64,000 nt of DNA, from assembly GCF_013410565.1 (NCBI RefSeq), contig NZ_JACCFO010000001.1:2294001-2358000 (forward strand), given 5' to 3'. Positions 10,015 to 31,518 of this stretch are shown piece after piece (the stretch's first letter is position 1; every line of letters begins with the position of its first letter). The notes under the pieces are model-generated. The model made no database searches, had not been told where the DNA came from, and saw nothing but the letters and a program-made list of their open reading frames with translations. The stretch is from Streptomonospora nanhaiensis. Lineage in GTDB: Bacteria; Actinomycetota; Actinomycetes; Streptosporangiales; Streptosporangiaceae. A program made the translations under genes and the position numbers.

Positions 10015-10254
10015 TCAGCGTGTCGGGGGGTCTTCGGCCTGCTGAGCAAGCTCCTGGAGCATCGCGTCGAGCCGAGCGGAGGCGCGCACTGGATCCCTTT
10101 TGACCGCCTCTGTGACCGTCAAAAGCCTACGTATAACCGGAATCCGGACACCGTCGGGCAGTGCGTTGGCGCGGCGGTGCGCTTCCCGCAGCCGCCGCGC
10201 CAAGTCAAGGTAAAATTCTGCGGAATCCGGTTCTACTGGGTGACCGGAAGCCAT
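10015..10254 (-). CDS. Small protein of unknown function downstream of leuD
   Basis: A 79-residue protein beginning [19 protein letters not shown]. It is mostly amphipathic helix with many Arg, Leu and Glu ([52 protein letters not shown]). The ATG lies inside the last codons of leuD, a 22-base overlap, which suggests translational coupling. The less biased composition compared with random GC-rich frames supports it as real. No domain was recognised; a regulatory or scaffold role would be speculation. Confidence 0.6.
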
Positions 10255-10823
10255 GCGTGGCGCCGCTTCTCGTAGGCGTCGATGTCGTCGGTGTGGCGCA
10301 GCGTGAGGGCGATGTCGTCCAGCCCCTCCATCAGCCGCCACCGTGTGTAGTCGTCCAGTTCGAACGGCTGCACGATCCCCGGCGCCCGCACCTCGCGCTC
10401 GACCAGGTCCACGGTCACCTGGGTGGCGGGATCGGCCTCGACCGCGTCCCACAGCCGCTCGACCACGTCCTGGGGCACCACGACCGTCAGCAGCCCGCCC
10501 TTGAGCGAGTTGCCGCGGAAGATGTCGCCGAACCGCGGCGCGATCACGGCCTTGAACCCGTAGTCCTGGAGCGCCCAGACCGCGTGCTCGCGCGAGGACC
10601 CGGTGCCGAAGTCCGGGCCGGCCACCAGCACGCTGCCGCCGGCGAACTCCGGCTTGTTCAGCACGAACTCGGGGTCGTTGGCGCGCCAGGCCGCGAACAG
10701 GCCGTCCTCGAACCCGGTGCGGGCCACCCGCTTGAGGTAGACGGCGGGGATGATCTGGTCGGTGTCCACGTTGCTGTAGCGCAGCGGCACGGCGCTGCCG
10801 GTGTGGACGGTGAACTTCTCCAT
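10233..10823 (-). CDS. leuD: 3-isopropylmalate dehydratase, small subunit
   Basis: Partner of LeuC in the isomerisation of 2-isopropylmalate to 3-isopropylmalate (leucine synthesis); it can also serve the citramalate route. The 196 residues show [20 protein letters not shown] at the start, the [14 protein letters not shown] substrate-loop motif, and [24 protein letters not shown]. It follows leuC by 38 bases on the same strand. Confidence 0.97.
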
Positions 10824-10861: not shown

Positions 10862-12259
10862 CTACAGGTCGGCGGGCGAGGACAGGGTGCCGCGCACGGC
10901 GGTGGCGGCGGCGACCAGCGGCGACACCAGGTGGGTGCGCCCGCCCTTGCCCTGGCGGCCCTCGAAGTTGCGGTTGGAGGTGGAGGCGCTGCGCTCGCCC
11001 GGCTTGAGCTGGTCGGGGTTCATGCCCAGGCACATCGAGCAGCCCGCCTCGCGCCACTCGGCGCCCGCGGCGGTGAAGATCTCGCCCAGGCCCTCGGCGT
11101 TGGCCTGCTCCTTGACCCGCATGGAGCCGGGTACCACCAGCATGCGGACGTTGTCGGCCACCTTGCGGCCCTTGATGATCTCGGCGGCGGCGCGCAGGTC
11201 CTCGATGCGGCCGTTGGTGCACGAGCCCAGGAACACGGTGTCGACCCGGACCTCGCGCAGCGGCGTGCCGGGCGCCAGGTCCATGTAGGCCAGCGCCTTC
11301 TCGGCGGCGGCGCGCTCGGTGGGGTCGGTGAACGACGCCGGGTCGGGCACCGCGGAGTCCAGCGGCGCGCCCTGGCCGGGGTTGGTGCCCCAGGTGACGA
11401 ACGGGCTCAGCTCGGCGGCGTCGAGCACGACCTCGGTGTCGAAGACCGCGTCGTCGTCGGTGCGCAGGCTCCGCCAGTGCGCCACCGCGGCGTCCCAGTC
11501 GGCGCCCTGGGGCGCGTGCGGGCGGCCCTTGATGTAGTCGAAAGTGGTGTCGTCGGGCGCGATCATGCCCGCGCGGGCGCCGGCCTCGATCGACATGTTG
11601 CAGATCGTCATCCGGGCCTCCATGGACAGCTCCCGGATGGCCTGGCCGCGGTACTCGATGACGTAGCCCTGGCCGCCGCCGGTGCCGATGCGGGCGATGA
11701 CGGCCAGGATGATGTCCTTGGCGGTCACGCCCTCGGGCAGCGAGCCGTTGACGGTGACCGCCATGGTCTTGAACGGCGCCATCGGCAGCGTCTGGGTGGC
11801 CAGCACGTGCTCGACCTGGCTGGTGCCGATCCCGAACGCCAGCGCGCCGAACGCGCCGTGGGTGCTGGTGTGGCTGTCGCCGCAGACGACGGTCATGCCC
11901 GGCTGGGTCAGGCCGAGCTGCGGGCCCACCACGTGGACGATGCCCTGGTCGATGTCGCCCATGGGGAACAGCCGCACGCCGAAGTCGGAGGCGTTCTTGC
12001 GCAGGGTCTCGATCTGGGTGCGCGAGACCTTGTCGGCGATGGGGCCGAGGATGTTCTCCGTGGGGACGTTGTGGTCCTCGGTCGCGATGGTCAGGTCCGG
12101 GCGGCGCACGGGCCGGCCGGCCAGCCGGAGCCCCTCGAACGCCTGCGGACTGGTGACCTCGTGGACGAGGTGCAGGTCGATGTAGAGCAGGTCGGGTTCG
12201 CCATCGGCACGCCGGACGACGTGCTCCTCCCAGACCTTCTCGGCCATCGTGCGAGCCAT
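10862..12259 (-). CDS. leuC: 3-isopropylmalate dehydratase, large subunit
   Basis: Aconitase-family iron-sulfur enzyme of leucine synthesis, 465 residues. Visible marks: EKVWEEHVV at the start, [28 protein letters not shown], the [4Fe-4S] ligand cysteines in FLGSCTNGR and [10 protein letters not shown], and [24 protein letters not shown] at the end. ATG at 12259 is preceded by GAGGAGA at good distance; a longer frame upstream lacks support. Divergent from ndgR, whose promoter region contains a probable NdgR box, so leuCD is likely under NdgR control. Confidence 0.97.
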
Positions 12260-12391: not shown

Positions 12392-12420
12392 TTGCATTCC
12401 AAATAGCGAGACGGCAATAT
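12392..12420 (+). promoter_or_regulatory. ndgR promoter with an embedded NdgR-type box
   Basis: TTGCAT (12392-12397), 17 bp, then CAATAT (12415-12420), which ends six bases before the ndgR ATG; the transcript would be leaderless. The spacer contains ATTCCAAATAGCGAGAC (12396-12412); its right ten bases are identical to the box upstream of ilvB. A box at this position would allow autorepression. The leuC promoter on the other strand probably overlaps, with a possible TTGCCG at 12418-12413. Confidence 0.6.
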
Positions 12421-12426
12421 CAAGCC

Positions 12427-13164
12427 ATGGACAACTCTAGCTCATCCAGCGGCGTCGGTGTGCTCGACAAGACGATGTCGGTCCTCGACGCCCTGGAGTC
12501 GGGGCCCGCCACCCTCGCCCAGCTCGTGCGCATCACCGGCCTGGCCCGTCCCACCGCCCACCGCCTGGCCGTCGCCCTGGAGCGCCACCGCATGGTCACG
12601 CGCGACAGCCAGGGCCGGTTCGTCCTGGGCCCCCGGCTGGGCGAGCTGTCCATCGCCACCGGCGAGGACCGGCTGCTGGCCATCGCCACCCCGGTGCTCA
12701 CCCAGCTGCGCGACCTCACCGGCGAGAGCGCCCAGCTCTACCGCCGCCAGGGCGACTCCCGCGTGTGCGTGGCCGCCGCCGAGCGCACCAGCGGGCTGCG
12801 CGACACCGTTCCGGTGGGCAGCGAGCTGCCCATGACCGCCGGTTCGGCCGCCCAGGTGCTGCTGGCCTGGGAGGACCCCGCGCGGGTGCGGCGGCTGCTG
12901 GCCGCCGCCCGCTTCAGCGAGACCGCGCTGCAGTCGGTGCGCCGCCGCCGCTGGGCCCAGAGCGTCGGCGAGCGCGAACAGGGCGTGGCCTCGGTGTCGG
13001 CGCCGATCGCCGGGCCCGGCGGCCGGGTGATCGCCGCCATCTCGGTGTCGGGCCCCATCGAGCGGCTCACCCGCACGCCGGGGCGGCTGCACGCCCAGGC
13101 GGTCACCTCGGCCGCCGAGAAGATCAACGAGGCGCTGCACGCCCAGGACCCCGCGGCGGTGTAG
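12427..13164 (+). CDS. ndgR: IclR-family regulator of amino-acid synthesis, NdgR/LtbR type
   Basis: Transcription factor that in Streptomyces (NdgR) and Corynebacterium (LtbR) controls leuCD and other branched-chain amino-acid genes. The 245 residues contain an N-terminal winged helix (about 12-75: [34 protein letters not shown]) and an IclR effector domain (about 85-240). The short Ser-rich start [17 protein letters not shown] is typical. Position divergent from leuC is conserved. Its predicted -10 lies six bases before the ATG, so no ribosome binding site is expected. Similar palindromes upstream of cimA, leuB and ilvB suggest a local regulon. Confidence 0.92.
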
Positions 13165-16047: not shown

Positions 16048-16713
16048 ATGCGGATATCGGAGCTGAGCAGGCGCAGCGGGGTGCCCGTGGCGACCATCAA
16101 GTACTACCTGCGGGAGGACCTGCTGCCCAAGGGCGCGGCGGTCTCCACCACGCAGGCCGACTACTCCGAGGCCCACCTCCAGCGGCTCCGGCTGGTGCGC
16201 GCCCTGGTCGAGGTGGCCGAGGTCCCGCTGGCCCGCATCCGCGCCGTGCTGGCCGCGGTGGACAACCCCGACCTCGACCTCCACACGGTCCTGGGCACCG
16301 CGATCTTCGCGATGAGCGCCACGCCCGAGTCCCACCCCGGCGACCCCGCGTGGGACCGCGCGGCCGAGCAGACCGACGCACTCCTGGCGGAGCTGGACTG
16401 GCGCGTCACGCCGGACTCCCCCGCGCGCGTCCAGCTGACGCGGGCGCTGGCGGCCATGCAGGCGCTGGGCCGCCCGGCGACCCCCGAGATGCTTCGGGGG
16501 TACGCGTCGGCGGCGCACCAGGCGGCGGAGCTGGACGTGGCGTGCATCGACCCCGAGGCGCCGCGCGAGGAGGCGCTGCTCCACGCGATCAGCCTGTCGG
16601 CGCTGATGGAGCAGTCGCTGTCGGCGCTGCGCCGACTGGCGCAGGAGGACGTGTCGGCGGCGCGGTTCGGCGCCGCGCCGGCGCGCACCGGGAAGGGACC
16701 CGGCGCCCGGTAA
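16048..16713 (+). CDS. MerR-family transcriptional regulator
   Basis: The 221-residue protein opens with the MerR winged-helix MRISELSRRSGVPVATIKYY, then LREDLLPKG and the second wing ADYSEAHLQRLRLVRAL. The C-terminal effector part is helical and has no Cys cluster, so a metal sensor is unlikely. ATG at 16048 is chosen because the HTH begins there; AGGAAGG about 20 bases upstream is distant. It likely controls itself and the divergent DUF4188/SGNH pair through the dyads at 15989-16020. Confidence 0.88.
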   Translation: MRISELSRRSGVPVATIKYYLREDLLPKGAAVSTTQADYSEAHLQRLRLVRALVEVAEVPLARIRAVLAAVDNPDLDLHTVLGTAIFAMSATPESHPGDPAWDRAAEQTDALLAELDWRVTPDSPARVQLTRALAAMQALGRPATPEMLRGYASAAHQAAELDVACIDPEAPREEALLHAISLSALMEQSLSALRRLAQEDVSAARFGAAPARTGKGPGAR

Positions 16714-16719
16714 CGGCAA

Positions 16720-16747
16720 AGGCCCTCATCGGTGCGGATGAGGGCCT
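16720..16747. terminator. Bidirectional terminator hairpin between the MerR-type gene and tRNA-Glu
   Basis: AGGCCCTCATC (16720-16730) and its perfect complement (16737-16747) make an 11-bp stem with a six-base loop. It serves the plus-strand regulator and the minus-strand tRNA. Confidence 0.8.
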
Positions 16748-16765
16748 GCGCGTGTGTCGGTGTGG

Positions 16766-16838
16766 TACCCCCGAGCGGATTCGAACCGCCGTTACCGCCT
16801 TGAGAGGGCGGCGTCCTAGGCCACTAGACGACGGGGGC
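16766..16838 (-). tRNA. tRNA-Glu (anticodon CUC), copy 1
   Basis: A 73-base cloverleaf from GCCCCCG to CGGGGGT plus A. The anticodon stem CCGCC/GGCGG encloses loop CTCTCAA with anticodon CTC. The T arm contains GGTTCGAATCC. Identical in sequence to the copy at 16998-17070. CCA is not encoded. Confidence 0.97.
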
Positions 16839-16940
16839 GTGTGCAGTGGGTCCACCCTATCGGACCGAATCGGGTGATCCGGCCGCGATCGCGGCGGAAC
16901 CGGGAGCGCCGGGGCGGCTGGTGACCGCCCCGGCGACCCA

Positions 16941-16972
16941 GCAAAAAAGCCCCCGCGCGAAGCGGAAGCCTC
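16941..16972 (-). terminator. Terminator downstream of tRNA-Glu copy 2
   Basis: On the minus strand GCTTCCGC, a short loop, GCGGGGGC and then TTTTTTG. The stem has two G-U pairs. It separates the two tRNA-Glu genes, so copy 1 probably depends on readthrough or its own promoter. Confidence 0.8.
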
Positions 16973-16997
16973 TTCACCTGGCATTGTCCCTGCTGCG

Positions 16998-17070
16998 TAC
17001 CCCCGAGCGGATTCGAACCGCCGTTACCGCCTTGAGAGGGCGGCGTCCTAGGCCACTAGACGACGGGGGC
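16998..17070 (-). tRNA. tRNA-Glu (anticodon CUC), copy 2
   Basis: Same 73-base sequence as the copy at 16766-16838, including anticodon CTC. It follows tRNA-Gln by about 70 bases on the same strand and is followed by a T-run terminator. Confidence 0.97.
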
Positions 17071-17139
17071 CTGATGTGATCGCCTGGGCGATCGAGCCGG
17101 TGACCGACTCGTACCGGCCGCCGTGACCGGAGGCCGTGG

Positions 17140-17211
17140 CTGGGGTACCAGGACTCGAACCTAGACTAACTGAACCAGAATCAGTCGTGCTGCCGATTAC
17201 ACCATACCCCA
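17140..17211 (-). tRNA. tRNA-Gln (anticodon CUG)
   Basis: A 72-base cloverleaf from TGGGGTA to TACCCCA plus G. The anticodon stem ACTGA/TCAGT encloses TTCTGGT with anticodon CTG. The U1-A72 first pair is typical of tRNA-Gln and is a recognition element for Glu-tRNA-Gln amidotransferase. First gene of the tRNA series here. Confidence 0.97.
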
Positions 17212-20992: not shown

Positions 20993-22588
20993 TCAGTCCT
21001 GCGGGTAGCCCTGCCGCAGCAGACCGTAGGTGACGGCCTGCTCCAAAGCGATCCAGGACGCCTCGATGACGTTCTCGCCCACGCCCACCGTGGTCCACTC
21101 CCCCCGGCCGTCGCTGAAGGTCACCAGGATCCGGGTGACCGCGGCGGTGCCCGAGGCCCCCTCCAGGATGCGGACCTTGTAGTCGGTCAGCTCCAGCCCG
21201 CCCAGGGCGGTGTAGACGCCCTCCATGGCCGAGCGCAGCGCCCGGTCCAGCGCGTTGACCGGGCCGTTGCCCTCGCCGGTGGCGATCACCCGCTCGCCCT
21301 TGACGTGCAGCTTGACCGTGGCCTCGCTGACGGCCGACTCGTCCGCGCGCCCCACCGCGCGCCGCTCGGCGATGACCCGCCAGGACTCGGTGTCGAAGTA
21401 GCGCACCGGCCGGCCCAGCTCCTCGCGCAGCAGCAGCTCCAGCGACGCGTCGGCCGCCTCGAAGCTGTAGCCCGCCAGCTCCATGCTCTTGACCCGCTCG
21501 ACCACGCGGCCCGCCAGCTCGCGGTCTCCGGACAGGTCCAGACCCAGCTCCTTGGCCTTCAGCTCGATCGAGGCGCGCCCGGCCATGTCCGACACCAGCA
21601 TGCGCATGTCGTTGCCCACCAGCACCGGGTCCAGGTGCTGGTAGAGGTCGGGGTCGACCTTGATCGCCGAGGCGTGCAGGCCGGCCTTGTGGGCGAACGC
21701 CGACACCCCGACGTAGGGCTGGTGGGTGCTGGGCGCGATGTTGACGATCTCGGCGATGGCCTGCGACACCCGCGTCATCTGGCTGAGGCAGCCCTCGGGC
21801 AGGACGTCGCGGCCCTGCTTGAGCTCCAGGGCCGCCACCACCGAGAAGAGGTTGGCGTTGCCCACGCGCTCCCCGTAGCCGTTGGCCGTGCACTGCACGT
21901 GCGTGGCGCCGGCGTCCACGGCCGCCAGCGTGTTGGCCACCGCGCAGCCGGAGTCGTCCTGGGCGTGGATGCCCAGCCGCGCGCCCGTGGCCTCGCGGAC
22001 CTCGGTCACGACGCGGGTGATGTCGGCGGGCAGCATGCCGCCGTTGGTGTCGCACAGCACGACCACGTCGGCGCCCGCCTCGGCGGCGGCGCGCACCACG
22101 CTCAGCGCATAGGCGGGGTCGTGCCGGTAGCCGTCGAAGAAGTGCTCGCAGTCGAGGAACACCCGCCGGCCGCTGCCGCGCAGGAAGGCGACGGTGTCGG
22201 CGACCATCGCCAGGTTCTCCTCGCCGGTGGTGCGCAGCGCCCGCTCCACGTGCCGGATGTCGCTCTTGGCCACCAGGGTGACCACCGGCGCGCCGGAGTC
22301 GCGCAGCGCCAGGACCTGGGGGTCCTCCTCGGCGCGCACCCCCGCCCGCCGGGTGGAGCCGAAGGCCGACAGCCGCGCGTGGCGCAGGTCCAGCTCGGCG
22401 GCGGCGCGCTGGAAGAACTCGGTGTCCTTGGGGTTCGCCCCCGGCCAGCCGCCCTCGATGAACGCCACCCCGAACTCGTCGAGGAGCTTGGCGATGGCCA
22501 GCTTGTCGGCGACGGTGAGGTTGATGCCCTCGCGCTGGGCCCCGTCGCGCAGCGTGGTGTCGAAGACGTGGAAACTGTCGTCAGGCAT
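20993..22588 (-). CDS. cimA: (R)-citramalate synthase
   Basis: Condenses pyruvate with acetyl-CoA to citramalate, giving a threonine-independent route to 2-oxobutyrate and isoleucine. The 531 residues begin VFDTTLRDGAQREG (DRDG-type catalytic start), with FIEGGWPGANPKD, VVLCDTNGGMLP, GIHAQDDSGCAVANTLAAVDAGATHVQCTANGYGERVGN (metal-binding His pair) and FAHKAGLHASAI. A LeuA-type regulatory domain occupies about 380-531. The leader upstream encodes a peptide with three consecutive Ile codons and a terminator, which fits isoleucine control and favours citramalate over isopropylmalate synthase. Confidence 0.93.
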   Translation of the reverse strand: MPDDSFHVFDTTLRDGAQREGINLTVADKLAIAKLLDEFGVAFIEGGWPGANPKDTEFFQRAAAELDLRHARLSAFGSTRRAGVRAEEDPQVLALRDSGAPVVTLVAKSDIRHVERALRTTGEENLAMVADTVAFLRGSGRRVFLDCEHFFDGYRHDPAYALSVVRAAAEAGADVVVLCDTNGGMLPADITRVVTEVREATGARLGIHAQDDSGCAVANTLAAVDAGATHVQCTANGYGERVGNANLFSVVAALELKQGRDVLPEGCLSQMTRVSQAIAEIVNIAPSTHQPYVGVSAFAHKAGLHASAIKVDPDLYQHLDPVLVGNDMRMLVSDMAGRASIELKAKELGLDLSGDRELAGRVVERVKSMELAGYSFEAADASLELLLREELGRPVRYFDTESWRVIAERRAVGRADESAVSEATVKLHVKGERVIATGEGNGPVNALDRALRSAMEGVYTALGGLELTDYKVRILEGASGTAAVTRILVTFSDGRGEWTTVGVGENVIEASWIALEQAVTYGLLRQGYPQD

Positions 22589-22644: not shown

Positions 22645-22675
22645 CAAAAAAGACCCCTCGTGGACACGAGAGGTC
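22645..22675 (-). terminator. Attenuator terminator in the cimA leader
   Basis: On the minus strand an 11-bp stem, GACCTCTCGTG with CACGAGGGGTC (one G-U pair), followed by TTTTTTG. It lies after the leader peptide stop and 57 bases before the cimA ATG. GACCTC occurs twice (22692-22687 and 22675-22670), so the upstream copy can compete for GAGGGGTC and act as antiterminator. Confidence 0.88.
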
Positions 22676-22697: not shown

Positions 22698-22739
22698 TCA
22701 GCCAGCGCGCCTCACGATAATGATGACCTGAGACGGCAC
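22698..22739 (-). CDS. cimA attenuator leader peptide (13 residues)
   Basis: GTG at 22739 to TGA at 22698 encodes MPSQVIIIVRRAG. Five consecutive branched-chain codons (GTC ATC ATT ATC GTG) make translation sensitive to charged tRNA-Ile and tRNA-Val. A hairpin with perfect 10-bp arms (GCGCGCTGGC / GCCAGCGCGC) covers the end of the peptide and would be disturbed by a stalled ribosome. A -10 (CAGACT, 22752-22747) ends seven bases before the GTG, so the leader is probably leaderless mRNA. Confidence 0.85.
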   Translation of the reverse strand: MPSQVIIIVRRAG

Positions 22740-22791: not shown

Positions 22792-22808
22792 GTCTCACTG
22801 CGTGAGAC
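22792..22808. promoter_or_regulatory. NdgR-type palindrome upstream of cimA
   Basis: GTCTCACTGCGTGAGAC, 7-bp perfect arms around TGC. The centre is 61 bases upstream of the predicted transcription/leader start, a classical activator position. The same 17-mer framework occurs at 25386, 31502 and, in degenerate form, 12396. Confidence 0.72.
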
Positions 22809-22817
22809 GCCGACCGC

Positions 22818-22843
22818 GGGCGCGCCGGGGCCCCGGCGCGCCC
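22818..22843. terminator. Perfect 26-bp palindrome downstream of ilvE
   Basis: GGGCGCGCCGGGG followed directly by its complement, 11 bases past the ilvE stop on the minus strand. It is probably a terminator that insulates the cimA promoter from ilvE transcription. There is no T run. Confidence 0.6.
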
Positions 22844-22854
22844 GCCCCCGCGTG

Positions 22855-23973
22855 TCAGCCGAAGGTGCGCACCCAGCCGTGGGTGTCGGGGCGGGTGCCG
22901 TACTGCAGCGCCACCAGCTCCTCGCGCAGGCCCATGGTGACGGGGCCGGGGCCGCCGTCGCCCATGGTGAACTCCCCGGTGCGGCTCTTGACGCGGCCCA
23001 CGGGGGTGACGACGGCCGCGGTGCCGCACGCGAACACCTCGGTCAGCTCGCCGGACTCGGCCGCGCGCCGCCACTCGTCGGTGGACAGGCGGCCCTCCTC
23101 GGTGGCGAACCCCAGCTCGGGCGCGAGCGTGAGCAGGGAGTCGCGGGTGATGCCGGGCAGCAGGGTGCCGGTGAGCGCGGGGGTGAGCAGGCGGGCCTCG
23201 TCGCCGGAGCCGAAGACGAAGAACAGGTTCATGCCGCCCATCTCCTCGACCCAGCGGTGCTCGACGGCGTCGAGCCACACCACCTGGTCGCAGCCCTGGT
23301 CGACGGCCTGGGCCTGGGCGAGGAAGCTGGCGGCGTAGTTGCCCGCGAACTTGGCCTCGCCGGTGCCCCCGGGTGCGGCGCGGGTGTAGTCCTCGCTCAG
23401 CCACACGGTGACGGGCTTGACGCCCCCGGAGAAGTAGGGGCCGGACGGAGAGGCGATCAGGACGAACCGGTAGCTGCGCGAGGGGTTGTTGACGCCGAGG
23501 CCGACGTCGGTGGCGAACATGAACGGGCGCAGGTAGAGGCTGCTGTTGGGCTGGGTGGGGATCCAGTCGGCGTCGGCGGCCAGCAGGGTCTCGATGGCGC
23601 CGAGGAACAGCTCCTCGGGCAGTTCGGGCATTGCCATGCGCCGCGCGCTGCGGTTGAACCGCGCGGCGTTGGCGTCGGGCCGGAAGCAGGCGACCTCGCC
23701 GCCGGGGTGGCGGTAGGCCTTCAGGCCCTCGAAGATCTCCTGGGCGTAGTGCAGGGCCGCCGTGGCGGGGTCGAGGGTGAGGGGGCCGTAGGGCTCCAGA
23801 CGGGCGTCGTACCAGCCCTTGCCCTCCTCATAGGCGATGGTGACCATGTGGTCGGTGAACACGTTGCCGAACCCGGGGTTGTCCAGCAGCTGCGCGCGCT
23901 CCTGCGGGGTCCTCCGCTGAGCCGAGAGCTGGACGTCGAACGTCAACCCGCTTGTGGTGGTGCCGTTGTTCAT
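22855..23973 (-). CDS. ilvE: Branched-chain amino-acid aminotransferase
   Basis: PLP enzyme of fold type IV that performs the last step of Ile, Val and Leu synthesis and the first of their breakdown. The 372 residues include [69 protein letters not shown], the Schiff-base lysine in [26 protein letters not shown] and [18 protein letters not shown] at 23973 has GAGAGGA upstream. It lies between leuB and cimA, all on the minus strand, each with separating hairpins. Confidence 0.97.
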
Positions 23974-24194
23974 GGGTCAGGTCCTCTCCGTACATCGGGC
24001 CGGCAGCGCCGACCCGGCTTCCAGTGTGACGGAAACAACGCACCCGCGGCCATACCGCCGCACACCCACCGTTGCGGGCGGCCGGAGGGCCGCCGCGCGG
24101 GGGCGCGCAGCGCGCAGCGGGCGCGCCGTGAATCGGCACGCCCGCTGCACCTGGAGATCCGTGTGTCCGCCTCAGCCGCGCCGATTTGCGACCA

Positions 24195-24231
24195 GCAGGG
24201 CTGAGGCGCCGGTCGGCGGCGTCAGCCCTGC
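24195..24231 (-). terminator. Hairpin overlapping the leuB stop codon
   Basis: GCAGGGCTGA (24195-24204) and its complement (24222-24231) form a 10-bp stem. The leuB stop (24224-24222) is within the second arm. A further imperfect stem, arms starting GCGGGCG, lies at about 24118-24146. Confidence 0.5.
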
Positions 24232-25289
24232 CCGGCTACTCGCTCGGCGATGGCGTCGCCGATCTGGGCGGTGGAGCGCTCGCTGAGGCCGTCCTTCGCG
24301 CGGGCCAGCAGGTCCTCGGCCACGGCGCGCTCGATGGCGCGCGCGGCCCCGCTCAGCCCGAGGTGGTCGAGCATGATCGCCGAGGACAGGACGGTGGCCG
24401 TGGGGTCGGCCTTGCCCTGGCCGGCGATGTCGGGGGCCGAGCCGTGCACCGGCTCGAACATGCTGGGGAAGTCGTTCTCGGGGTTGATGTTGCCGCTGGC
24501 GGCCAGCCCGATGCCGCCGGCGATCGCCGCGCCGAGGTCGGTGATGATGTCGCCGAACAGGTTGTCGGTGACCACGACGTCGAAGCGCTGCGGCTGGGAC
24601 ACGAAAAACATGGTGGCGGCGTCGACGTGCAGGTAGTCGACGGAGACCTCGGGGAACTCCGCGCCCACCTCGCGCACGACGCGCTGCCACAGCTCGCCGG
24701 CGTAGCTGAGCACGTTGTCCTTGTGCACCAGCGTGAGTTTGCGGCGCGGGCGGCGCGCGGCCGCGGCGAAGGCGTAGCGCACGACGCGCTCCACGCCGAA
24801 GCGGGTGTTGACGCTGTCCTGGGTGGCGATCTCGTGGGGGGTGCCCTTGCGCAGCACCCCGCCCATGCCGGCGTAAGGGCCCTCGGTGCCCTCGCGCACC
24901 ACGAGCATGTCGATGTCCTCGGGCGCGACGTCGGCGAGCGGGGTGGTGACGCCGGGGTAGAGGCGGACCGGGCGCAGGTTGACGTAGTGGGAGAACGCGA
25001 ACCGCAGCCGCAGCAGCAGGCCGCGCTCCAGCACGCCGCTGGGCACGCTGGGGTCGCCCACCGCGCCGAGGAAGACGGCCTCGTGCCCCCGCAGCTCCGC
25101 CTCGACGGAGTCGGGCAGGGTCTCGCCGGTGGCGTGCCACCGGCGGGCGCCCAGCTCGTACTCGGTGGTGTCGAAGGCGAGGTCGTGCCCGGAGGCGACG
25201 GCGGAGAGGACCTTGAGGCCCTCGGCCACCACCTCGGGGCCGATCCCGTCGCCGGGGATGACGGCCAACTTCACGGTGCGCGCAGCCAT
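24222..25289 (-). CDS. leuB: 3-isopropylmalate dehydrogenase
   Basis: NAD-dependent oxidative decarboxylase giving 2-oxoisocaproate in leucine synthesis; it can also act on the citramalate-derived intermediate. The 355 residues show [15 protein letters not shown] at the start, [47 protein letters not shown], the metal site [26 protein letters not shown] and [23 protein letters not shown] at 25289. A palindrome of the NdgR type lies 97-113 bases upstream. No leader peptide or attenuator was found. Confidence 0.97.
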
Positions 25290-25385
25290 TACCAGCCCAG
25301 CCTCTAATCTGCTCGTCTCGTCGGGGTTTCCGGTGCGGCCTCACGGCGGGGTCCGGCCGCGCGGGGACTCCGCGCGGCCTGGGTC

Positions 25386-25424
25386 GTCTCAGATGGTGAG
25401 ACCTGGGGAAACGGTCAGTGAGAC
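25386..25424. promoter_or_regulatory. NdgR-type palindrome plus half-site upstream of leuB
   Basis: GTCTCAGATGGTGAGAC (25386-25402) has perfect 6-bp arms. A half-site GTGAGAC follows at 25418-25424. On the minus strand TAGTCT (25432-25427) is a possible -10 just upstream; if it is used, the box would lie inside the transcribed leader and act negatively, unlike at cimA and ilvB. Confidence 0.6.
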
Positions 25425-25428
25425 AAGA

Positions 25429-25530
25429 CTAGCGCCCCGCCGGGCCGCCGTTGTCGCGGCGGTCGAGAGCGACCTGGACGGCCTCGGTGGCCTCGTCGGC
25501 GGTGTCGGGAGCGGTGGTGGTGTCGTACAC
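25429..25530 (-). CDS. Small acidic protein of unknown function upstream of leuB (33 residues)
   Basis: GTG at 25530 is preceded by a near-perfect AGGAGG with five-base spacing. The 33 codons have strongly G/C-rich third positions (all but about two). The peptide begins MYDTTTAPDTADEATEA, is acidic in the first half and ends ALDRRDNGGPAGR. No family was recognised. The frame stays open upstream to a GTG at 25818, but that part is Pro/Arg-rich with weaker third-position bias. The stop is 139 bases before leuB, so it could be the first cistron of the leuB transcript. Confidence 0.5.
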   Translation of the reverse strand: MYDTTTAPDTADEATEAVQVALDRRDNGGPAGR

Positions 25531-25994
25531 GGTGTCCTCCTCGCCTCGCGGGCACGCGCGCAGCCGAAGGGCGCCGCCGGACGGCGGGCGCGAGGGGCGG
25601 CGGGTCGCGCCGCGCGGGCGCCCGGACATGCCGGGGTACGCCGGTGGATGCGCTGGATGGAACGGCGCGGGGCGCCGCCGGCCCCAGGGGGCGCAGGCGG
25701 AGCACGCGCCGAACCCGGCGAGTGGTGGTGCCGGGAGGTCCGGCCGCGAGGTATGGGGCGGGCCGGGCCGTGCGGGCGGCGGTGGAGGTCCGATGCCGGT
25801 GTGGACCGGCGTGGTCACCGCGCGCCCAACTCCTAGGAACCCAGACTATCGGACGTCCGAGTATCCGGCCAGTGTCCCGCCGGGCGGACACGCGCGGCGC
25901 GGGCCCGACGCCGGCGGGGGCCGCCCGCTCGTGCGGGCGGCCCCCGGCCGCTGTCCGGCGTCCGCGCCGCGCCCCGAGGGAGCGGTCGGCGGGG
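25531..25994. promoter_or_regulatory. Intergenic region downstream of serA with a possible minus-strand promoter
   Basis: In this 464-base stretch the only structured element is a perfect 12-bp palindrome TCGGACGTCCGA (25849-25860) directly upstream of a minus-strand -10-like TAGTCT (25848-25843), with AGGAG and a GTG at 25818 following. That would serve the small reading frame that ends at 25429. The rest is Pro/Arg-biased GC-rich sequence. Confidence 0.35.
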
Positions 25995-27581
25995 CTAGTC
26001 GAGATCGACCTGGCGGGACCGCTCCGCGCGGATCTCGGTGGCGATGGACTCCAGCGTGGCCTCGGGGATCGCGGAGTCGACGGTGAGCGTGATCAGCGCG
26101 GTGCCGCCGGCGGCGTCGCGGCTGACCTGCATGCCCGCGATGTTGATCCCGGCCTCGCCCAGCAGCGCGCCGACCGTGCCGACGATGCCGGGGCGGTCGT
26201 CGTAGGACAGGAACGCCATGTGCGCGCTGATCGGGATCTCCATGCTGTAGCCGTTGATCTCGACCAGCTTCTCGGCCTGGCGGGGGCCGGTCAGCGTGCC
26301 CGAGACCGACACCCGCTGGCCGTCGGGCATCAGGCCGCGCACGGTGATGAGGTTGCGCCAGTCGGAGTGGTCGTCGCTGGTGACCAGGTTGACCTCGACG
26401 CCGCGCTCCTTGGCCAGCAGCGGGGCGTTGACGAAGGTCACGGCCTCTTCGACCACGTCGCCGAACACGCCCTTGAGGGCCGCCAGCTCGATCACCTTGA
26501 CGTCGTGGGCCGCGATCTCGCCGCGGACCTCGATGTCGATGCGGTCGGCCACCCCGCGCGCCAGCGCGGTGAAGATGCGGCCCAGCTTCTCGGTGAGGGG
26601 CAGGCCCGGCTTGACGTCCTCGGCGACCGCGCCGCCCTGGACGTTGACGGCGTCGGGCACGAACTCGCCCGACAGCGCGAGCTTGACCGAGCGCGCCACC
26701 TGCGTGCCGGCCTTCTCCTGGGCCTCGGCGGTGCTGGCGCCCAGGTGCGGGGCCACGACCACGTTCTCGAACTCAAACAGCGGGCTGTCGGTGCAGGGCT
26801 CCTTGGCCCACACGTCGATGCCCGCGCCGCCGACCCGGCCCTCCTTGAGCGCGCGGTAGAGCGCGGCCTCGTCGAGGATGCCGCCGCGCGCGGCGTTGAT
26901 GATGCGCACGTGCGGCTTGACCTTGGCCAGCGCCTCGTCGCCGATGAGCCCGACGGTGTCCTTGTTCTTGGGCAGGTGGATGGTGATGAAGTCGCTGCGC
27001 TCCAGCAGTTCGTCGAGGGTGACCATCTCGACGCCGATCTGCGCGGCGCGGGCCGGCTGCACGAAGGGGTCGTAGGCGATGATGTGGGTGCCGAAGGCCG
27101 AGAGCCGCTGGGCCACCAGGGCGCCGATGCGGCCCAGGCCGACGATCCCGACCGTCTTGTCGTAGATCTCGACGCCGGTGTACTTGGAGCGCTTCCACTC
27201 GCCGTTGATCAGGGCGTTGTGCGCGGGCGCGGTGTTGCGGGCCGAGGCCAGCAGGAGGTTGATGGCCTGCTCGGCGGCGCTGACGATGTTGGAGGTCGGG
27301 GCGTTGACCACGAGCACGCCGGCCTTGGTGGCCGCCTCGACGTCAACGTTGTCCAGACCCACGCCGGCCCGGGCCACCACCTTCAGCCGCGGCGCGGCGG
27401 CCAGCGCCTCGGCGTCGACCCGCGTGGCGCTGCGCACGATCAGGGCGTCGACGTCGGCGAGGGCCGGCAGCAGCTCGGCGCGGTCGGCGCCGTTGGCGTG
27501 GCGGACCTCGAAGTCGCCCTCCAGCAGGGCGAGACCGGCGGGGGAGAGTTCTTCCGCGACGAGAACGGAGGGCTTAGGCAC
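25995..27581 (-). CDS. serA: D-3-phosphoglycerate dehydrogenase
   Basis: First enzyme of serine synthesis, NAD-dependent. The 528 residues equal the usual long actinobacterial form: catalytic/NAD domains (about 1-315) with VGIVGLGRIGALVAQRL, NAARGGILDEAAL and the catalytic His in VVAPHLGASTAEAQEKAG; an intervening domain (about 320-450); and a C-terminal ACT domain (about 455-528, DDRPGIVGTVGALLGEAGINIAGMQV) for serine feedback. GTG at 27581 has AAAGGA seven bases upstream; a longer frame to 27683 is unsupported. It follows ilvC after a 259-base gap with a long palindrome, so it is probably a separate transcript. Confidence 0.96.
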   Translation of the reverse strand: MPKPSVLVAEELSPAGLALLEGDFEVRHANGADRAELLPALADVDALIVRSATRVDAEALAAAPRLKVVARAGVGLDNVDVEAATKAGVLVVNAPTSNIVSAAEQAINLLLASARNTAPAHNALINGEWKRSKYTGVEIYDKTVGIVGLGRIGALVAQRLSAFGTHIIAYDPFVQPARAAQIGVEMVTLDELLERSDFITIHLPKNKDTVGLIGDEALAKVKPHVRIINAARGGILDEAALYRALKEGRVGGAGIDVWAKEPCTDSPLFEFENVVVAPHLGASTAEAQEKAGTQVARSVKLALSGEFVPDAVNVQGGAVAEDVKPGLPLTEKLGRIFTALARGVADRIDIEVRGEIAAHDVKVIELAALKGVFGDVVEEAVTFVNAPLLAKERGVEVNLVTSDDHSDWRNLITVRGLMPDGQRVSVSGTLTGPRQAEKLVEINGYSMEIPISAHMAFLSYDDRPGIVGTVGALLGEAGINIAGMQVSRDAAGGTALITLTVDSAIPEATLESIATEIRAERSRQVDLD

Positions 27582-27795
27582 AGCTGGTTCCTTTGACGGG
27601 TTGCGGCGTGGCCGCGCGTTCGCGGCTGGTCCTTGTCCCCACGCGCGGGGCGCGTTGGGCTGAGTTCGGGTTGTGACGGCCACGAAAAGTCTAGTGCGCC
27701 GGTGGGGATCCCACGCGGAAAGGGGTCCACCTGACCCGGGGAGAAGGCCCGTCCGCGCGGGGCCGCCCGGCCGTGCGGGTGGACGGCCGGACGGC

Positions 27796-27833
27796 GCGGC
27801 GGGCGGGCCGGCGCGCGCCGGCCCGCCCGCCGC
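27796..27833. terminator. Perfect 38-bp palindrome after ilvC
   Basis: Two uninterrupted 19-bp arms starting GCGGCGGGCGGGCCGGCGC, beginning seven bases past the ilvC stop on the minus strand. Entirely G/C and without a T run. It probably ends the ilvBNC transcript. Confidence 0.7.
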
Positions 27834-27840
27834 AAGGCGC

Positions 27841-28836
27841 CTAGCCCTGCAGCCAGCTCATCAGCGGGCGCAGCTCGGCGCCCACCTTCTCGATCGGCTC
27901 GTTCTGCTCGGCCTCACGGCGCTTGAGGAAGTTCGGCCGCCCGGCGTCGAACTCGGCCACCAGCTCGCGCGCGTAGGAGCCGTCCTGGATCTCCGCCAGC
28001 ACCCGGCGCATCTCCTCGCGGGTCTCCTCGGTGACGATGCGCGGACCGCGGGTGTAGCCGCCGTACTCGGCGTTGTCCGACACCGACCAGTTCATCTTTG
28101 AGATGCCGCCCTCGTACATGAGGTCGACGATCAGCTTGACCTCGTGCAGGCACTCGAAGTAGGCGACCTCGGGCTGGTAGCCGGCCTCGGTGAGGGTGGA
28201 GAACCCGGCCTTGATCAGCTCGGCCAGACCGCCGCACAGGACGGTCTGCTCGCCGAACAGGTCGGTCTCGGTCTCCTCCTTGAAGGTGGTCTTCAGCGCG
28301 CCCGCGCGGGTGCCGCCGATGCCCTTGGCGTAGGACAGCGCCAGCTCCCAGGCCGACCCGGAGGCGTCCTGCTCCACGGCGACCAGGACCGGCACGCCGC
28401 GGCCCTCCTCGAACTGGCGGCGCACCAGGTGGCCGGGGCCCTTGGGGGCGACCATGGCGACGTCGACGTTGGCCGGCGGCTGCACCAGGTCGTAGCGGAT
28501 GCTGAACCCGTGGCCGAAGAACAGCGCGTCGCCGTCCTTGAGGTGGGGCGCGATCTCGTTGGCGTAGAGGTCGCGGTGGATGTGGTCGGGGACCAGCACC
28601 ATGATGAGGTCGGCCTCCTGGGCGGCCTCGGCGGGGGTGACCACCCGCAGGCCCGCCTCCTCGGCCTTAGCGCGGCTGGCCGAGCCCTCGGCGAGGCCGA
28701 CGCGCACGTCCACGCCGGAGTCCCGCAGCGACAGCGCGTGCGCGTGCCCCTGGCTGCCGTAACCGATCACGGCGACCTTGCGCCCCTGGATGACGCTCAG
28801 GTCGGCGGCGTCGTCGTAGTACATCTCTGCTGCCAC
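27841..28836 (-). CDS. ilvC: Ketol-acid reductoisomerase (class I)
   Basis: NADPH-dependent step of Val and Ile synthesis. The 331 residues are the short class I form. Seen: [26 protein letters not shown] (NADPH site), [32 protein letters not shown], the metal-binding [37 protein letters not shown] and [11 protein letters not shown] at 28836 lies eight bases after AAGGAG and gives MAAEMYYDD. Third gene of ilvB-ilvN-ilvC, 144 bases after ilvN. Confidence 0.97.
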
Positions 28837-28980
28837 TTCGGCTTGCTCCTTGTGTGTGGTTGGCGTGTGTGGTCGGTGCCGCCGCGCCGGGGGGCGGCGC
28901 GCGGCCGGGAGTCGGCACCGGGGTGTGCGGGTCGCGCCCGGCGGCCGGGCCTCATGGGCGCCGGCCGGGCCGGGCGGGGC

Positions 28981-29505
28981 TCACGCGCTGCGCTCTACCG
29001 CGCGCAGTGAGCGGTCGGTGATCGACCTGGGGCCGCGGCCCAGGGCGACGAGGCCGGACTTCACCAGTTCCTTGATGCCGAACGGTTCGAGGTTGCGCAC
29101 CAGCGCGTCGAGCTTCTCGGGCCGACCGGTGGCCTCGACGACCACCACGTCGGGCCCGACGTCGACGATGTTGGCGCGGAACAGCTCGGCCGTCTGGATG
29201 ACGGCGGCCCGGTTGCCGGCGTCGGCCTTGACCTTGGCCAGCAGGAGTTCCCTGCGGACCGAGGCGTCGTTGTCCATCTCGACGATCTTGATGACGTTCA
29301 CGAGCTTGTTGAGCTGCTTGGTCACCTGCTCCAAAGGGTGGCGGTCGCAGTTGACCACGATCGTCATGCGGGACAGGCCCTCGTACTCGGTGGTGCTGAC
29401 GCTGAGCGAGTGGATGTTGAACCCGCGCCGCGAGAACAGCGCCGATGTCCGGGCGAGGATACCGGGGGTGTCTTCCACGAGGACCGACAGGGTGTGCTGG
29501 GTCAT
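28981..29505 (-). CDS. ilvN: Acetolactate synthase, regulatory subunit
   Basis: Small subunit that activates IlvB and confers valine inhibition. The 174 residues have an N-terminal ACT domain (LSVLVEDTPGILARTSALFSRRGFNIHSLSV) and a C-terminal ALS_ss_C domain (ELLLAKVKAD to ELVKSGLVALGRGPR). ATG at 29505 is 20 bases after the ilvB stop, so the two are co-expressed. Confidence 0.97.
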   Translation of the reverse strand: MTQHTLSVLVEDTPGILARTSALFSRRGFNIHSLSVSTTEYEGLSRMTIVVNCDRHPLEQVTKQLNKLVNVIKIVEMDNDASVRRELLLAKVKADAGNRAAVIQTAELFRANIVDVGPDVVVVEATGRPEKLDALVRNLEPFGIKELVKSGLVALGRGPRSITDRSLRAVERSA

Positions 29506-29525
29506 GGGGATTCTCGCTCTTCCAC

Positions 29526-31286
29526 TCAGTCCTCGTCGTCCCAGTCGGGCGCCATGTCGCGCGCGTACTGGATGTTGTCGTTGCTGATGCCGGGGCCGAC
29601 CATGGGCCAGACCATGGCGTCCTGGTGGACGGTGAAGTCGACCACGACCGGCGCGTCGTCGACCGCCATGGCCTTCTCGACGGTGGCGTCGATGTCCTCG
29701 GCGCGCTCGCAGCGCAGCCCGACACAACCGTACGCCTCGGCCAGGCGGACGAAGTCGGGGATGCGCACCTTCTTGTCGCGCGGGGCGGTCTGCAGGTCGG
29801 TGTTGGAGTAGCGGCCCTCGTAGAACAGGGTCTGCCACTGGCGGACCATGCCGAGGTTGCCGTTGTTGACGATGGCGACCTTGATGGGGATGCCCTCGAT
29901 CGCGCAGGTGGCGAGCTCCTGGTTGGTCATCTGGAAGCAGCCGTCGCCGTCGATGGACCACACCGTGCGCTCGGGCGCGCCGACCTTGGCGCCCAGCGCG
30001 GCGGGCACCGAGAACCCCATGGTGCCCAGGCCGCCGGAGTTGATGAAGGAGCCCGGCTTCTCGTGGCCGATGAACTGGGCGGCCCACATCTGGTGCTGGC
30101 CGACGCCGGCGACGTAGTGGGCGTCGGGGCCGACGATCTCGCCCAGGCGGCGGATGACGTGCTGGGGCGAGAGCGTGCCGTCGTCGGGGTCCTCATACCC
30201 CAGCGGGTAGACCTCGCGCAGCCGGTCCAGCTGGGCCCACCAGGCGGCGTAGTCGCCCTGGCGGCCGGCGGCCTGGTCGTTGCGGACGGCCACGACGAGG
30301 TCGGCGATGACCTCGCGGCAGTCGCCGACGATGGGGACGTCGGCGTGCCGGTTCTTGGAGATCTCGGCGGGGTCGATGTCGGCGTGGACGATCTTGGCGC
30401 CGGGGGCGAAGCTGTCGAGCTTGCCGGTGACCCGGTCGTCGAAGCGGGCGCCCAGGGCGACGATGAGGTCGGCCTTCTGCAGCGCGCCCACGGCGGCCAC
30501 ACTGCCGTGCATGCCGGGCATGCCCAGGTGCTGGGGGTGGCTGTCGGGGAAGACGCCGCGGGCCATCAGGGTGGTGACCACGGGCAGGCCGGTCAGCTCG
30601 GCCAGGACCCGCAGCTCCTGGGCGGCGCCGGCGCGCAGGACGCCGCCGCCGACGTAGAGGACGGGCCGGCGGGACTCGGCGATCATCCGGGCGGCCTCGC
30701 GCACCTGCTTGCCGTGCGGCTTGGTGACCGGGCGGTAGCCGGGCATGTCCAGGCGCTGGGGCCACTCGAAGTCGACGGCGGCCTGGAGCGCGTCCTTGGC
30801 GATGTCGACGAGGACGGGTCCGGGGCGGCCGGAGGAGGCGATGTGGAAGGCCTCGGCGATGGTCCGCGGGATGTCCTCGGCGCGCTTGACGAGGTAGTTG
30901 TGCTTGGTGATGGGCATCGTTATGCCGCAGATGTCGGCTTCCTGGAAGCCGTCGGTGCCGATGAGGGGCGTGGCGACCTGGCCGGTGATGGCGACCAGGG
31001 GCACCGAGTCCATGTGGGCGTCGGCGATGGGGGTCACCAGGTTGGTGGCGCCGGGGCCGCTGGTGGCCATGCAGACGCCGGGGCGCCCGGTGGCGTAGGC
31101 GTAGCCTTCGGCCGCGTGGCCCGCTCCCTGCTCGTGCCGCATGAGGATGTGCCGCACGTTCACCGAGTCGTAGAGGGGGTCGTAGGCGGGCAGGATCGCC
31201 CCGCCGGGGATCCCGAACACCACGTCGACACCGGCATGCTCCAGTGACCTGATGAGCGATTGGGCTCCGGTCATCTGCTCGGTCAT
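29526..31286 (-). CDS. ilvB: Acetolactate synthase, catalytic subunit
   Basis: ThDP/FAD enzyme forming acetolactate and acetohydroxybutyrate, the entry step to Val, Leu and Ile. The 586 residues carry the catalytic glutamate in [71 protein letters not shown], and the ThDP motif [15 protein letters not shown] ending in [15 protein letters not shown] at 31286 has GAAGGA upstream. Expression is probably attenuated: a leader peptide and T-run terminator precede it, with an NdgR-type box further up. Confidence 0.98.
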
Positions 31287-31344
31287 CACAAGATCCTTCG
31301 GAGGGCTCGTCGTCGGGTGTGCCTGGCAACTGCGCTTGGCAACA

Positions 31345-31377
31345 AAAAACCCCCCACCGCGGGTGCGGTTGGAGGGA
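31345..31377 (-). terminator. Attenuator terminator in the ilvB leader
   Basis: On the minus strand an 11-bp stem, CCTCCAACCGC with GCGGTGGGGGG (one mismatch, one G-U), loop ACCC, then TTTTTTG. It lies 59 bases before the ilvB ATG and after the leader peptide. A preceding hairpin CTTGGTC/GACCAAG covers the last leader codons. Confidence 0.9.
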
Positions 31378-31398
31378 GCGCGCAGCACGGATGCTTGG

Positions 31399-31449
31399 TC
31401 AGCTGGCTGCGCGCCGACCAAGTACGAGAATGAGGAAGTTGCTCTGCAC
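31399..31449 (-). CDS. ilvB attenuator leader peptide (16 residues)
   Basis: GTG at 31449 to TGA at 31399 encodes [16 protein letters not shown]. Five consecutive regulatory codons (CTC ATT CTC GTA CTT: Leu Ile Leu Val Leu) fit multivalent control by all three end products; CTT and GTA are rare codons in such GC-rich genomes and would add to stalling. The -10 lies seven bases upstream of the GTG and no ribosome binding site is present, so it is probably read from a leaderless mRNA. Confidence 0.9.
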
Positions 31450-31456
31450 GGAACCA

Positions 31457-31486
31457 ACGATGACCGAGGCGCGGGCGGCGCGTCAA
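31457..31486 (-). promoter_or_regulatory. Promoter of the ilvB leader
   Basis: TTGACG (31486-31481), 18-bp spacer, CATCGT (31462-31457). Initiation would fall on the leader GTG at about 31449. Confidence 0.65.
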
Positions 31487-31501
31487 CCGAAACGGCGGTT
31501 T

Positions 31502-31518
31502 GTCTCATATAGCGAGAC
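31502..31518. promoter_or_regulatory. NdgR-type palindrome upstream of ilvB
   Basis: GTCTCATATAGCGAGAC with 5-bp perfect arms. Its centre is 61 bases upstream of the predicted start, exactly as at cimA. The right ten bases ATAGCGAGAC are identical to the sequence in the ndgR/leuC region. Confidence 0.72.

Follow-up and report, generated by a model that had tools for sequence, protein, structure and literature searches.

The 64,000-nucleotide stretch of the Streptomonospora nanhaiensis genome analysed here (the window) holds genes of branched-chain amino acid (BCAA) synthesis together with ndgR, and upstream of cimA, leuB and ilvB it carries 17-bp palindromes of the form GTCTCA-N5-TGAGAC that are very probably operators of the IclR-family regulator NdgR. 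A preliminary description of the window had proposed as much; we accept the proposal on the grounds that the palindrome is kept at four genes in relatives, that each of four genomes searched encodes one NdgR-like helix-turn-helix (HTH) domain, and that NdgR of Streptomyces coelicolor was located at the counterparts of three of the four promoters by chromatin immunoprecipitation sequencing (ChIP-seq). The operator assignment is a prediction from sequence, and NdgR binding, the sign of regulation and the effector are presumed from homologs. Unexpectedly, the same palindrome also recurs in pairs on a dispersed non-coding element elsewhere in the genome.

Read directly, the sites upstream of cimA (GTCTCACTGCGTGAGAC) and leuB (GTCTCAGATGGTGAGAC) match GTCTCA-N5-TGAGAC without mismatch and that upstream of ilvB (GTCTCATATAGCGAGAC) with one, exactly where the preliminary description had placed them; the cimA palindrome sits just behind ilvE. 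The setting described earlier also stands, since leuC, leuD, cimA, ilvE, leuB, ilvB, ilvN, ilvC and serA are all named by NCBIfam and ndgR lies beside leuCD in the same window (Table 1). The fourth copy claimed for the ndgR/leuC region (ATTCCAAATAGCGAGAC) fares less well: its right half agrees, but with four mismatches it does not share the motif as a whole. The window contains five matches at up to three mismatches, fewer than its shuffles (mean 17.2), so the raw window count by itself is no evidence; the case for operators is made by the intergenic position of the sites with zero, zero and one mismatch beside BCAA genes and by their retention in relatives.

That retention was assessed upstream of ilvB, leuB, ndgR and cimA in this genome and 30 others of the family, from up to 30 genera, by reading 600 bp per locus (shorter at three contig ends). 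The sample comprised 30 ilvB, 30 leuB, 29 ndgR and 30 cimA loci, one genome each yielding no ilvB, leuB or cimA locus and two no ndgR locus, and the controls were 179 composition-matched palindromes, permutations of the same half-site. At up to two mismatches the motif was found at 22/30 ilvB, 12/30 leuB, 20/29 ndgR and 11/30 cimA loci, against control means of 0.34-0.61 (0.55 for ilvB, 0.52 for leuB and 0.34 for cimA); at up to one mismatch the counts were 14, 8, 4 and 9, against 0.01-0.04. Conservation of the arms at the four promoters, which had been named as a check on the operator proposal, is far above the permuted controls, least so at leuB and cimA. Sites found at this threshold of two mismatches also keep their places: at ndgR 18 of 20 occupy -31 or -22/-23, at ilvB 16 of 22 fall between -282 and -330, at cimA all 11 between -187 and -260, and at leuB 7 of 12 no further than 233 bp from the start. 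When the two best sites listed per locus are taken, 26 of 29 ndgR loci include one at -31 or -22/-23; the site of this genome, with four mismatches, is not among its best two. Pooling the sites with up to three mismatches in the expected ranges gave 75 from the 119 loci (26 ilvB, 22 ndgR, 16 cimA and 11 leuB; three from this genome), and their matrix reads roughly [GAt]TCTC[AG]-N-A-T-N-[GC]-[TC]GAGA[Ct].

Several observations weigh against this interpretation. Two permuted controls scored high, CGATCT at 23/29 ndgR loci and ATCTCG at up to 12/29; five of the 12 leuB sites lie more than 400 bp upstream; at two mismatches, over half of the relatives have weak leuB and cimA sites or none at all; most of the 50 listed genome sites (below) are not at BCAA genes; and the S. 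coelicolor ChIP-seq motif has no place for the C that stands second in the TCTCR half. As for the controls, the largest single counts at up to two mismatches were 9 at ilvB, 6 at leuB, 23 at ndgR and 7 at cimA. The 9, one of two 6s and the 7 belong to ATCTCG, which is itself a form of the real motif. The CGATCT matches at ndgR lie at -140 to -280, six printed rows at -179 to -249 being letter-identical, which fits conserved leuC coding sequence.

With regard to the protein, the product of the gene next to leuC matches IclR-family models of NCBIfam solely below their cut-off, and we call it NdgR because the gene adjoins leuCD and has a single match in each of 29 of the 31 genomes. With its DNA-binding domain as query, four genomes of the genus each returned an NdgR (95-100% identical) plus a single other IclR HTH match (35-38% identical, E up to 1e-6), so that no close NdgR paralog was found in these four. 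The S. coelicolor regulon offers the nearest parallel (PMC4340878): there too the IclR regulator is divergent from leuC, the targets are ilvBNC, leuB-ilvE and ndgR-leuCD, with ChIP-seq peaks in vivo at ilvB, leuB and ndgR-leuC, and the motif is an imperfect palindrome with YCA..TGR halves. That motif, [GT]T[CT]CAC[CA][CTA][TC][GC][TC]GGAC, is of a 15-bp GTCCAC..GTGGAC type, whereas here the frame is 17 bp, the halves are TCTCR, cimA is a likely target and most listed copies lie in an element.

The preliminary description did not recall its motif as published, and this holds in part: the half-sites are a variant of the NdgR/LtbR motif KTYCRSMWYSYGRRM of a comparative IclR study (PMC8222616, Table 1), but the TCTCR form differs from it at one position. 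That study also gives an IclR group 1 consensus, GKTYCRYW3-4RYGRAMC, which shares with our sites the 17-bp frame and the YCR/YGR core and differs in position 3, here C not T, and in the other half, here G not A; tandem sites 18-22 nt apart, as possibly at leuB, are common among IclR regulators. When the sites are aligned by their dyad to the published KTYCR..YGRRM (by reading), four of five positions per half agree in most of them; agreement at all five is seen for TTCCA, the left half of the ndgR/leuC site, and for the TGGAC half that many second palindromes of the element have. We take the ndgR/leuC site for a predicted hybrid operator that pairs one GAGA half with one half of the published type, because KTYCR is matched at all five positions by TTCCA and at four by a TCTCR half.

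LtbR of Corynebacterium glutamicum is reportedly an IclR repressor acting on leuB and leuCD, and its motif is said to be CA(T/C)ATAGTGAGAC (Brune 2007), close to the ilvB and ndgR sites here; we know of no dispersed element in that system. The LtbR regulon differs from ours in including tryptophan genes, to judge from a title in the reference list of PMC8222616.

We picture, as a proposal, an NdgR dimer that would read, at the ndgR/leuCD, leuB, cimA and ilvBNC promoters, two inverted half-sites within a 17-bp frame, mostly TCTCR and in some cases like the published GTYCR. Alternatively, the palindromes might act as RNA hairpins (terminators or mRNA stems) and not as protein-binding DNA. A short stem is possible at each palindrome, and the position of the cimA copy behind ilvE would suit a terminator. 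We nevertheless regard this as very improbable: the letters are conserved and not pairing alone, since in 25 element copies none of five predicted pairs was preserved by a change in both partners; the sites at 22792, 25386 and 31502 have no T-run behind them; the ndgR/leuC site and the element's second palindrome are not fully self-complementary; and the terminator-like hairpins at cimA and ilvB are separate from the palindromes. A structured-RNA element was rejected on the same lack of covariation.

Those hairpins belong to what is probably a second layer of control at cimA and ilvB, ribosome-mediated attenuation. Upstream of each of the two genes lies a short leader open reading frame (ORF) containing regulatory codons and, after it, a strong terminator-like hairpin and T-run, so that NdgR operators would be succeeded by a leader rich in Ile, Leu or Val codons and a terminator. 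The gap from operator to leader is 52 bp at both genes, and the promoters are expected within it. Across the relatives, a BCAA-rich leader passed our filter at 29/30 ilvB loci (this genome included) and 20/30 cimA loci, and cimA leaders with RAG or RVG at or near the end were counted by eye at 26/30 loci; leuB of this genome has no leader passing the filter. A BCAA-rich leader and terminator hairpin upstream of ilvB have been published for Actinobacteria (PMC1262725) and resemble the arrangement at ilvB here, with the difference that an Ile-rich leader also precedes cimA in our case. The string cimA is absent from the accessible text of that paper, and no description of a cimA leader came up in the literature searched, in which subscription papers were mostly beyond reach. 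Against attenuation speaks the report that codon changes in the S. coelicolor ilvB leader were without effect (PMC1262725), which means that the attenuation may not be classical.

The whole genome (6.28 Mb) contains 14 exact GTCTCA-N5-TGAGAC sites, 73 at up to two mismatches as compared to 30 for the backward-read pattern, and 52 of the form DTCTCRNNNNNYGAGAH as compared to 4. The last figure is the highest among 120 genomes of the family, followed by 40 in a 12.1-Mb genome; within the genus, a sister species (G080) has 33 and two other members 8 and 14. The count of this form exceeds its control in many family genomes too, an excess made up partly of GC-rich versions that we take as coding chance. 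Of 50 sites listed from these 52, 33 lie in the dispersed element, three are the window sites and 14 lie elsewhere. The earlier statement that the palindrome marks BCAA promoters is accordingly too narrow. Many unrelated copies had also been named as an outcome that would speak against NdgR operators, and many there are; the operator reading is not undone by them. Among the non-element sites, one is upstream of a class I/II aminotransferase (L033:2001-2017), one upstream of an MFS transporter (L035:2001-2017) and a pair upstream of a methyltransferase (L044:2001-2038, with a second, weaker site 21 bp off), and these are possible candidates for further NdgR operators.

The element has a core of about 154 bp made up of palindrome 1 (RTCTCACATGGTGAGAC type), a spacer with the conserved blocks CGACGA..TCGTCG and AAACGGGCAT, and palindrome 2 (GTCTCACCATGTGGAC type). 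Trained on 25 seed copies, chosen by palindrome 1 at up to two mismatches, a model finds 38 copies in this genome at E below 1e-10, all outside the window. The distance between the two palindromes is 135-136 bp in 32 and 156-157 bp in 2 of the 34 scorable copies, and 135-137 bp in 20 of the 22 copies scored in G080 (of its 27, two truncated and three others were left out). The extra 21 bp corresponds to two helical turns and would suit a dimer of dimers bound in phase. By our own gene caller, the non-coding stretches holding the 38 copies have a median length of 1,120 bp. At one locus (L046) the core lies between tandem arrays of about 72 bp in inverted orientation; arrays of 70-74 bp occur in 8 of 42 own loci (38 of the 42 carrying the element), and 18 of 24 G080 loci have arrays of 59-145 bp. 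Hidden genes in these arms find no support: a codon-based caller sees none across the cores, and periods of 70-74 bp break the frame.

Does NdgR also bind the element? We lean towards thinking that it does, to judge from the letters, and consider this likeliest because the two kinds of site share base preferences and a hybrid site type. The commonest base of palindrome 1 in the 25 copies equals that of the 75 promoter sites at all 17 positions, although the seed choice selected for its 12 outer letters and not for the inner five; those five, palindrome 2 and the further copies are less affected by that choice, and the model is biased towards the common spacing. Palindrome 2 combines a half-site of the new kind with one of the published NdgR kind, and sites of this type, GTCTCAC-N3-GTGGAC, occur upstream of BCAA genes in relatives exactly at 2/119 loci (both cimA: L192, L207) and with up to one mismatch at 7/119, as compared to means of 0 and 0.17 for 30 permuted controls. 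Both observations count against the alternative that, while the promoter sites are NdgR operators, the element palindromes are read by another protein, their likeness reflecting convergence or descent without NdgR binding. The lack of a close paralog in the four genomes searched also counts against it, though one element has a more distant IclR HTH encoded about 0.9 kb away. This alternative nevertheless draws something from the further conserved blocks of the element, in view of which other proteins probably act on it, and from the 74 genes neighbouring element copies, among which no Pfam family has more than three members and the 25 families listed show no BCAA theme; on balance we consider it unlikely. 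The same neighbour families, together with the position of 9 of 38 copies between convergent genes, gave no support to the elements as promoters of their neighbours.

If NdgR does read the element palindromes, the element would have spread its operator in pairs, perhaps looped by a dimer of dimers, and our best guess at a function is phased looping or titration of NdgR. We tentatively suggest, with rather less assurance than for binding itself, that an expanding non-coding repeat has captured the operator of a pathway regulator and adds some 70 NdgR sites, which would either form local loops at dozens of places, shaping the nucleoid under an amino-acid switch, or titrate NdgR; titration would shift the set-point of BCAA regulation, and do so in the carrier species alone. 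An even spacing of the copies along the chromosome was rejected, their gaps varying much as in random sets, 35% of which were at least as even.

REP/BIME, ERIC and Correia-type repeats are likewise dispersed and intergenic and carry protein-binding sites, whereas the element here carries the site of a pathway regulator, in phased pairs; we know of no counterpart to that arrangement. No description of the element itself came up in the literature searched, of which subscription papers were mostly beyond reach. Were NdgR to sit on these elements, a repeat would have disseminated the binding site of a metabolic regulator, which as far as is known is rare in bacteria. Sister species without elements would allow titration, looping and rewiring of the regulon to be compared. 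The promoter sites themselves provide a candidate conserved NdgR operator across an actinobacterial family, with cimA and its Ile-rich leader added to the system and two half-site types on one frame.

It might alternatively be supposed that the promoter sites are relics of the element landed beside BCAA genes, given the palindrome in common and the abundance of the element in this genome. We hold this to be far-fetched: run against the window, the element model picks up hardly more than the palindromes themselves (matches of 16 nt at 25387 and 22792 and a weak gapped match at 12396), and the promoter sites occur in many genera, the element in one of 68 sampled. Conversely, the element might have been built from an operator region.

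The element is present in 2 of the 120 family genomes at E up to 1e-5, and none was seen in the 118 others under stricter filters, which lose weak matches; within the genus it is in 2 of 6 genomes, and a third gave a single weak match of 50 bases. In a collection of 84,980 species, from which records very close to this genome may be missing, an exact 20-base pattern of the core came up three times, in unrelated phyla and about as often as a rough hand estimate predicts. The sister species G080 has 27 strong copies, and of 24 compared, four share their place with one of 39 own loci, with matching flanks 87-97% identical; at one own element site, G080 has 47 bp of arm-like DNA without the core. 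Another member of the genus (G107, L256-L260) has DNA like the GC-rich arm repeats with no core and no palindrome within three mismatches, so the arm repeats may predate, or be independent of, the core. The IclR HTH next-closest to NdgR (35% identical) lies at the distance given above from an element copy in both carrier species (L223, that is G000:C1:5640167-5640352, and G080:C25:58566-58751), this copy being one of the four at a shared place.

Two pairs of own copies are identical at 92% over 1,070 bp and 94% over 745 bp, and the pair aligned in full has one abrupt and one fading end, for which reason duplication, gene conversion or transposition may be responsible. Transposition with clean ends was not shown by the aligned copies; target duplications were not searched systematically.

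Table 1. Predicted control sites and associated genes in the window, with example copies of the dispersed element
Feature	Position	Strand	Remarks
leuD, after leuC	10233-10823	-	NCBIfam PRK01641, 278 bits
leuC	10862..12259	-	NCBIfam PRK05478, 808 bits
Hybrid predicted NdgR operator, ndgR/leuC	12396..12412	+	31 bp upstream of ndgR; left TTCCA, right CGAGA
ndgR, IclR-family regulator	12427..13164	+	IclR-family models below cut-off; divergent from leuC
cimA, citramalate synthase	20993..22588	-	NCBIfam TIGR00977, 631 bits (cut-off 450)
Terminator-like hairpin and T-run, cimA leader to cimA	22646..22675	-	Fold, 126-nt stretch, z = -2.35
cimA leader ORF	22698..22739	-	MPSQVIIIVRRAG, isoleucine-rich
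Predicted NdgR operator, cimA	22792..22808	-	Exact; coding strand GTCTCACGCAGTGAGAC; 204 bp before cimA start
leuB, 3-isopropylmalate dehydrogenase	24222..25289	-	NCBIfam PRK03437, 580 bits (cut-off 393)
Predicted NdgR operator, leuB	25386..25402	-	Exact; 97-113 bp upstream of leuB start
Possible second leuB site	25407..25423	.	One conserved half GTGAGAC; centre 21 bp from first; by reading
ilvB, acetolactate synthase large subunit	29526..31223	-	NCBIfam PRK07789, 1077 bits; match from profile position 51
Terminator-like hairpin and T-run, ilvB leader to ilvB	31346..31378	-	Fold, 146-nt stretch, z = -2.32
ilvB leader ORF	31399..31449	-	Rich in BCAA codons
Predicted NdgR operator, ilvB	31502..31518	-	1 mismatch; coding strand GTCTCGCTATATGAGAC
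Element copy, example	L046:2001-2154		Contig G000:C1
Element copy, example	L030:1864-2017		Contig G000:C1
Element copy, example	L031:1865-2017		Contig G000:C1

The true start of ilvB is probably the in-frame ATG at 31286 and not the gene caller's 31223. A scan of the window with Rfam gave three tRNAs. A small tRNA cluster at 16600-17211 consists of two tRNA-Glu(CTC) and one tRNA-Gln(CTG) on the minus strand, called by both ARAGORN and Rfam, and a plus-strand tRNA-Gln called by ARAGORN only.

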